A DNA stretch of 36,619 nucleotides, from positions 1 to 36,619 of the forward strand of contig JAODNO010000448.1 of the NCBI GenBank assembly GCA_025465235.1, given 5' to 3'. Origin of the DNA: Pseudonocardia sp. (GTDB lineage: Bacteria; Actinomycetota; Actinomycetes; Mycobacteriales; Pseudonocardiaceae). Shown piece by piece: positions 35,414 through 36,619 of this stretch (the first letter of the stretch is position 1; each line of letters starts with the position of its first letter). A program made the translations under genes and the position numbers. Below the pieces are notes generated by a model. It was not told the DNA's origin. It did not search any database and was given only the letters and a program-made list of their open reading frames with translations.

Positions 35414-35866
35414 CTATTTCTGCAGGAGCAGGTCCGGCAGCGTCGCCAGCTCCACCAGCCGCGCCCTGGGCTCCGGCACCAACCTTCGGGTGGCGGAGTC
35501 GAGCAGCCCCATCCGGCAGCTGATCTCGGCGGCCACCACATCCGGCTCGCCGGCTACCCCGCCGTCGGCGGTGACGCGGCGCACCGTGTGCGCCATCTCG
35601 AACGTCTTGCCCGCACCGAACGTGAGACGCGAGTCGATGTCCACCACATCGCCGTGACGCAGCTCACGCAGGAACCGGACGTGCGTCTCCAGCAGCACGA
35701 TCCCCACGCCGTGCTCCAGAAAGCGCGCCATCGAGCAGCCTGCGGCGGTGAGGTGCTCGGTGCGCGCGTGCTCCCCGTAGCGGTGGTAGACCGCGTGGTT
35801 GACGTGGCCGTTCGCGTCGATCTCGTAGCTGCGGACGGCAACCCGGACGGAGAACCGATCATCCAT
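35414..35866 (-). CDS. Acyl-CoA thioesterase (4-hydroxybenzoyl-CoA thioesterase-like hotdog fold)
   Basis: FSVRVAVRSYEIDANGHVNHAVYHRYGEHARTEHL; VLLETHVRFLRELRHGDVVDIDSRL. Confidence 0.88.
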   Translation of the reverse strand: MDDRFSVRVAVRSYEIDANGHVNHAVYHRYGEHARTEHLTAAGCSMARFLEHGVGIVLLETHVRFLRELRHGDVVDIDSRLTFGAGKTFEMAHTVRRVTADGGVAGEPDVVAAEISCRMGLLDSATRRLVPEPRARLVELATLPDLLLQK

Positions 35867-36039
35867 GCCCGAAAGGATCTCCCATCAGGGCCGACGCGGC
35901 CGGGTGGCGGCCGCTGGCAGAGGGTCCCGGACCGGTAGCGGGGGGTGTTGTTGTGCGCCTATGGGGCCGGCCGTAGAGTTGAACGGCGGTTGAGACCACA
36001 GTCCGCACCACGAGTCCACGACGTCATTTCGAGGAGCCG

Positions 36040-36447
36040 GTGCGCATGAGCGGCGAATTCCCCGTAGAGCAAGGGGACATGCCAGGCGCCGCCGAAGAGA
36101 TCGGCGAAGTCATCCGTTTCGACGTGGTCGGCCACGGCGACCATGCCCGGGTCATGCACGTCGTCGGTGAGATCGACACCCTGACCGCGCCGGTCCTGCG
36201 CGGGAGGTTGGACGAGCAGCTTGCCGACACCCCGCTGCTGGTCCTCGACCTGAGCGACGTCACTTTTCTCGGGTCGGCCGGCCTCGCCGTCCTCGTCGCC
36301 GCCAAGGACGAGGCCGAACGGCGGCAGTGCCGGCTGCGGCTGGTGCCGGGATCGCGGATCGTCTCGCGTGCGCTCGAGGCCACGGGCCTGCTCGCGCTCT
36401 TCGACATCGCGGACGGCGTCCCGCAGGCCCTCGAGACCGCGCACTAG
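36040..36447 (+). CDS. STAS-domain anti-sigma factor antagonist
   Basis: HVVGEIDTLTAPVLRGRLDEQL; LLVLDLSDVTFLGSAGLAVLVAAKDEA (phosphorylatable Ser in FLGSAGL). Confidence 0.92.
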   Translation: MRMSGEFPVEQGDMPGAAEEIGEVIRFDVVGHGDHARVMHVVGEIDTLTAPVLRGRLDEQLADTPLLVLDLSDVTFLGSAGLAVLVAAKDEAERRQCRLRLVPGSRIVSRALEATGLLALFDIADGVPQALETAH

Positions 36448-36468: not shown

Positions 36469-36564
36469 GGAGGCGTATGGGTGCCTGGTGGCCCTCGCGG
36501 TCTTCAAAACCGACGTGGCCGAGTATCTCGGTCAGGCGGGTTCGATTCCCGTTCGCCTCCGCCA
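36469..36564 (+). tRNA. selC: tRNA-Sec (anticodon TCA), CCA encoded
   Basis: GGAGGCG...CGCCTCC acceptor with G discriminator and encoded CCA; anticodon stem CGGT-CTTCAAA-ACCG giving TCA; long variable arm TGGCCGAG/CTCGGTCA (8 bp); T-arm GCGGG-TTCGATT-CCCGT. Confidence 0.95.
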
Positions 36565-36619
36565 TCTCCCTCACGGGTTTGCTCGCACTGGGCCCGGGTA
36601 CCTGCGGTTGCGTGGGTGT

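Follow-up and report, generated by a model that had tools for sequence, protein, structure and literature searches.

Selenocysteine (Sec) is the 21st amino acid. The tRNA that carries it in bacteria, tRNA-Sec, is described in textbooks as having an acceptor stem of 8 bp and a T stem of 5 bp, the 8+5 division (PMC5330540, PMC7609411), and bulges in the D and anticodon stems (13a and 43a) have been reported for other bacterial tRNA-Sec (PMC5330540). Among the most widespread bacterial selenoproteins is the alpha subunit of formate dehydrogenase (PMC5029168). Within the Pseudonocardiaceae, Actinomycetospora chiangmaiensis DSM 45062 provides the closest described example: its Sec-containing FdhA subunits as well as SelA, SelB, and SelD were detected as proteins, and its formate removal is dependent on selenium (PMC7176365).

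Here we characterize a tRNA-Sec gene (selC) of Pseudonocardia sp. and compare its locus with these systems. The window, i.e., the whole stretch of DNA analysed (36,619 nucleotides), is the entire contig C247 of a draft genome (6.8 Mb, 731 contigs, 89% complete, 4.2% contamination). Because the draft is fragmented, we infer the linkage between contigs.

The selC gene and its fold

The only tRNA that ARAGORN found in the window was tRNA-SeC (tca) on the forward strand (36469-36564), and an earlier note on this DNA had placed a tRNA-Sec of about 96 nt at exactly these coordinates, at the right edge. The note had also asked for a check of the fold against a covariance model. The Rfam tRNA-Sec model RF01852 matched over its complete length (model positions 1-91) with 75.5 bits (E = 6e-14, cut-off 47), and in a covariance-model search of the 6.8 Mb genome this was the sole match above the cut-off. 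The stretch is an intact selC gene of 96 nt, including the encoded CCA. Its UCA anticodon (TCA in the gene) lies at 36504-36506, the discriminator G (G73) at 36561 is followed by CCA at the 3' end, and the long variable arm is present; the 8-bp variable arm, the anticodon, and the encoded CCA had each been recognized correctly from the sequence.

The unconstrained MFE fold was a full cloverleaf. In the acceptor stem (5' side, 36469-36476), the pair check and the fold gave seven standard pairs between 36469-36475 and 36554-36560, leaving U36476, the eighth position, unpaired and opposite a U, as had been noted by eye. The D arm (36479-36495) formed six pairs with one bulged U at 36482 and the 4-nt loop UGGU at 36486-36489, so that the earlier estimate of about four D-stem pairs was an undercount. 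The anticodon arm (36496-36515) had six pairs, a bulged A on the 3' side at 36513, and the loop CUUCAAA, and the variable arm (36516-36534) had 8 bp and a 3-nt loop. The T arm (36535-36553) was drawn with 6 bp, and its outermost pair, G·U between 36535 and 36553, corresponds to canonical 48:66 in the pair tables. The acceptor and T domain thus comprised 13 pairs in the MFE fold, divided as 7+6.

To judge the irregular positions, 78 sequences of the class Actinomycetes were compared. Position 8:66 is U·C in 75 of them, and when a one-base 3' bulge is allowed, the anticodon stem forms six of six pairs in all 78, as opposed to 4 or 5 without it. Judged from these sequences, the U·U at the eighth position and the bulged stems are lineage features common to the class. 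Decay of selC, which the U·U mismatch and the irregular D and anticodon stems might suggest, was rejected by this comparison, and the 8:66 mismatch was not counted as disqualifying since it is shared with the class.

Division of the 13-bp domain in Actinomycetota

The textbook 8+5 division was not found in selC, where 8:66 is U·U. Among 106 actinomycetotal sequences, the 48:66 pair is possible in 94; 11 have 8:66 in its place, and one has neither. Base 66 is C or U in the 94 sequences, facing an invariant G48; it is G in the 11, pairing with C8 or U8; and it is A in the single sequence that lacks both pairs. One of the 94 (L113) could pair at 8:66 as well. The ensemble probability of 48:66 was 0.18 in the window's selC, where the pair is G·U, versus 0.83 in a relative (G036), where it is G-C.

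These patterns suggest that 13 pairs would be retained under either division, 7+6 in the class or 8+5 in some other classes. We tentatively propose, with slightly less than even confidence, that the 13-bp domain of tRNA-Sec in the class Actinomycetes is divided as 7+6, with G48:C66 (G·U in the window) as the last T-stem pair, and that the other actinomycetotal sequences with G66 have the canonical 8+5 division with C8:G66. As G48 is invariant in both groups, covariation gives no proof of the 48:66 pair, and the 7+6 division is reached by exclusion. We found no description in the searchable literature of a 7+6 form of tRNA-Sec, or of tRNA-Sec in connection with Pseudonocardia. If real, the 7+6 form would be a small correction to the textbook structure of bacterial tRNA-Sec and would bear on how SelB measures the tRNA: the feature recognized by SelA and SelB would have to be the total of 13 bp and not an acceptor stem of 8 bp.

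Selenoprotein genes and Sec machinery around selC

Another contig (C43), read from its end toward its fdhA gene, matches the final 49 bases of the window at 48 positions; the one differing base points to strain variation or to a break in the assembly at this place. The spacer downstream of selC (36571-36619, forward strand) lies in this overlap and holds a probable GTG start of fdhA at 36618, from which the gene runs off the window. fdhA therefore probably starts about 50 bp behind selC on the same strand; four relatives (G011, G016, G018, and G004) have the same order and strand, with fdhA approximately 45-125 bp after selC. The earlier note had expected selA and selB next downstream, a place occupied by fdhA instead; its prediction of a nearby selenoprotein such as formate dehydrogenase was confirmed by this UGA-containing fdhA, along with a second copy on contig C68.

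Each of the two fdhA loci contains one TGA in frame and no second one; the site is shared (ENQARL-U-HSSTVPGLG on C43 and ENQARI-U-HSSTVPGLG on C68). A further contig (C599) carries a downstream portion of a gene of this kind, possibly the rest of the C68 copy. The N-terminal part of the C43 protein (328 residues) best matched the NCBIfam actinobacterial formate dehydrogenase NF041513 with 624 bits; the cut-off of 1400 applies to the full-length protein. The in-frame TGA occurs in all 44 fdhA matches in the genus and is the sole stop in 43 of them. In both copies of this genome and in 11 relatives, the UGA is followed after 21 nt by a SECIS-like hairpin whose loop reads GGUCU. The folding energy of this hairpin was not significantly more stable than that of mononucleotide shuffles, and the SECIS assignment is therefore based on its position and on the conservation of its apical loop. 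Automatic annotation that reads TGA as a stop will truncate the formate dehydrogenases of this Pseudonocardia genome.

The genome has selD and selA in addition to these selenoprotein genes with in-frame TGA and SECIS-like hairpin. On contig C485, selD is complete (TIGR00476, 388.7 bits, cut-off 125) and encodes cysteine at the site where some SelD proteins have Sec; selA, on the same contig, scored 342.5 bits with TIGR00474, above the equivalog cut-off of 267.9, and is cut at the contig edge. No true selB was found in the draft assembly: a search with SelB profiles gave seven matches, of which those on C292, C166, and C425 turned out on reading to be relatives of EF-Tu, TypA, and CysN, respectively, and the remaining four, which score below these three, were not accepted either. 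The selA/selB/selD set predicted earlier was thus recovered except for selB. In 34 genomes of the genus, selA is immediately followed by a selB match on the same contig. Because C485 breaks just before this position, selB is probably in an assembly gap, a missing assembly piece being likelier than a missing gene.

Upstream, a gene for a STAS-domain protein of the anti-sigma-factor-antagonist type (36040-36447, forward strand; PF01740, TIGR00377) ends 21 bp before selC and is a conserved neighbour in the genus by synteny. In 15 of the 20 genus loci examined (35414-36447 in the window; L032-L050 and L136), a STAS gene of this type immediately precedes selC and is itself mostly preceded by a 4HBT thioesterase gene; a second STAS-like reading frame was seen behind selB in L133 and L134. 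The gene downstream of selC varies among these loci and is fdhA, an amidase gene, or an AhpD-like gene. In L133 (3571-4296, genome G009), and likewise in L135 (G005), a CMD/AhpD-like gene directly after selC contains an in-frame TGA at a CxxU-type site; in L133 the site reads NDCHY-U (C-H-Y-U), and a GGUC-loop hairpin lies close behind the TGA. No close fdhA match was found in G009 or G005, though sel genes are present, and the CMD/AhpD-like protein is probably the selenoprotein of these two genomes. L133 (8171-9268, the copy tested) and L136 (9750-10976) have a reading frame between selC and selD that matches L-cysteine desulfhydrase Cds1, and L134 has a similar one.

Function of selC and comparison with known systems

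Of the 37 genus genomes that were searched, 33 have tRNA-Sec; in samples taken from the whole class and from the whole phylum, the corresponding counts were 60 of 198 and 118 of 199 genomes. Three of the four genus genomes without it (G002, G028, and G033) lack selA too. In two fragmented drafts the genes do not coincide, G029 having tRNA-Sec and no selA match, and G019 having selA and a selB-like match and no tRNA-Sec match; these may be assembly gaps.

Could selC be a relic in a genome that lost selB and with it Sec decoding? The draft holds no SelB, and the tRNA has the U·U at the eighth acceptor position and bulges in two stems, but these oddities are class-wide, selA is cut at a contig edge exactly where relatives have selB, and selA, selD, and two UGA-containing fdhA genes are intact as far as they can be read. 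We therefore regard a relic as very improbable. Still less probable, to the point of being negligible, is that selC encodes an unusual opal suppressor or allo-tRNA with serine or cysteine as its amino acid in place of Sec. A UCA anticodon and a long variable arm alone are no proof of the amino acid carried, yet the full-length match to the tRNA-Sec model, the 13-bp acceptor and T domain, the 6-bp D stem, and the G discriminator argue against such a tRNA, as does the presence in this genome of selA, selD, and fdhA genes that have the TGA and the hairpin.

The estimated contamination of the draft (4.2%) raises the question of whether the window contig was binned into this genome by mistake, an event that would leave the identity of the tRNA unaffected. 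The thioesterase-STAS-selC order is common to the genus relatives, the anticodon arm is typical of the genus, and the end of the window is shared with a second contig of this assembly, so that we give contamination hardly any credence.

We are thus highly confident that selC is functional and that the Sec-decoding trait works, for which we infer biochemical activity, co-transcription, and a selB gene in the assembly gap. The tRNA-Sec would be serylated by SerRS, and SelA would convert the seryl-tRNA to Sec-tRNA-Sec with selenophosphate from SelD. SelB would then bring it to UGA codons that have a SECIS hairpin behind them, mainly those of the formate dehydrogenase alpha subunits. Being about 50 bp apart on the same strand, selC and fdhA may be co-transcribed. 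Reading of UGA as Sec is very probable in this Pseudonocardia genome.

The window's selC resembles the bacterial tRNA-Sec of RF01852 in its UCA anticodon, G73, long variable arm, 6-bp D stem, 13-bp acceptor and T domain, and encoded CCA. It differs from the textbook form in that the D stem and the anticodon stem each contain a bulge and that the 13th pair is apparently 48:66, not the eighth acceptor pair, which would make the division 7+6 and not 8+5. A. chiangmaiensis belongs to the same family as the window's host and shares the Sec-type FdhA, which is predicted here from the gene sequences. There, selA and selB are listed with the FDH1 cluster, whereas here fdhA follows selC, and selD and selA are on another contig. 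The selC gene of the window is an ordinary member of a known Sec-decoding trait that is usual in this actinobacterial group.
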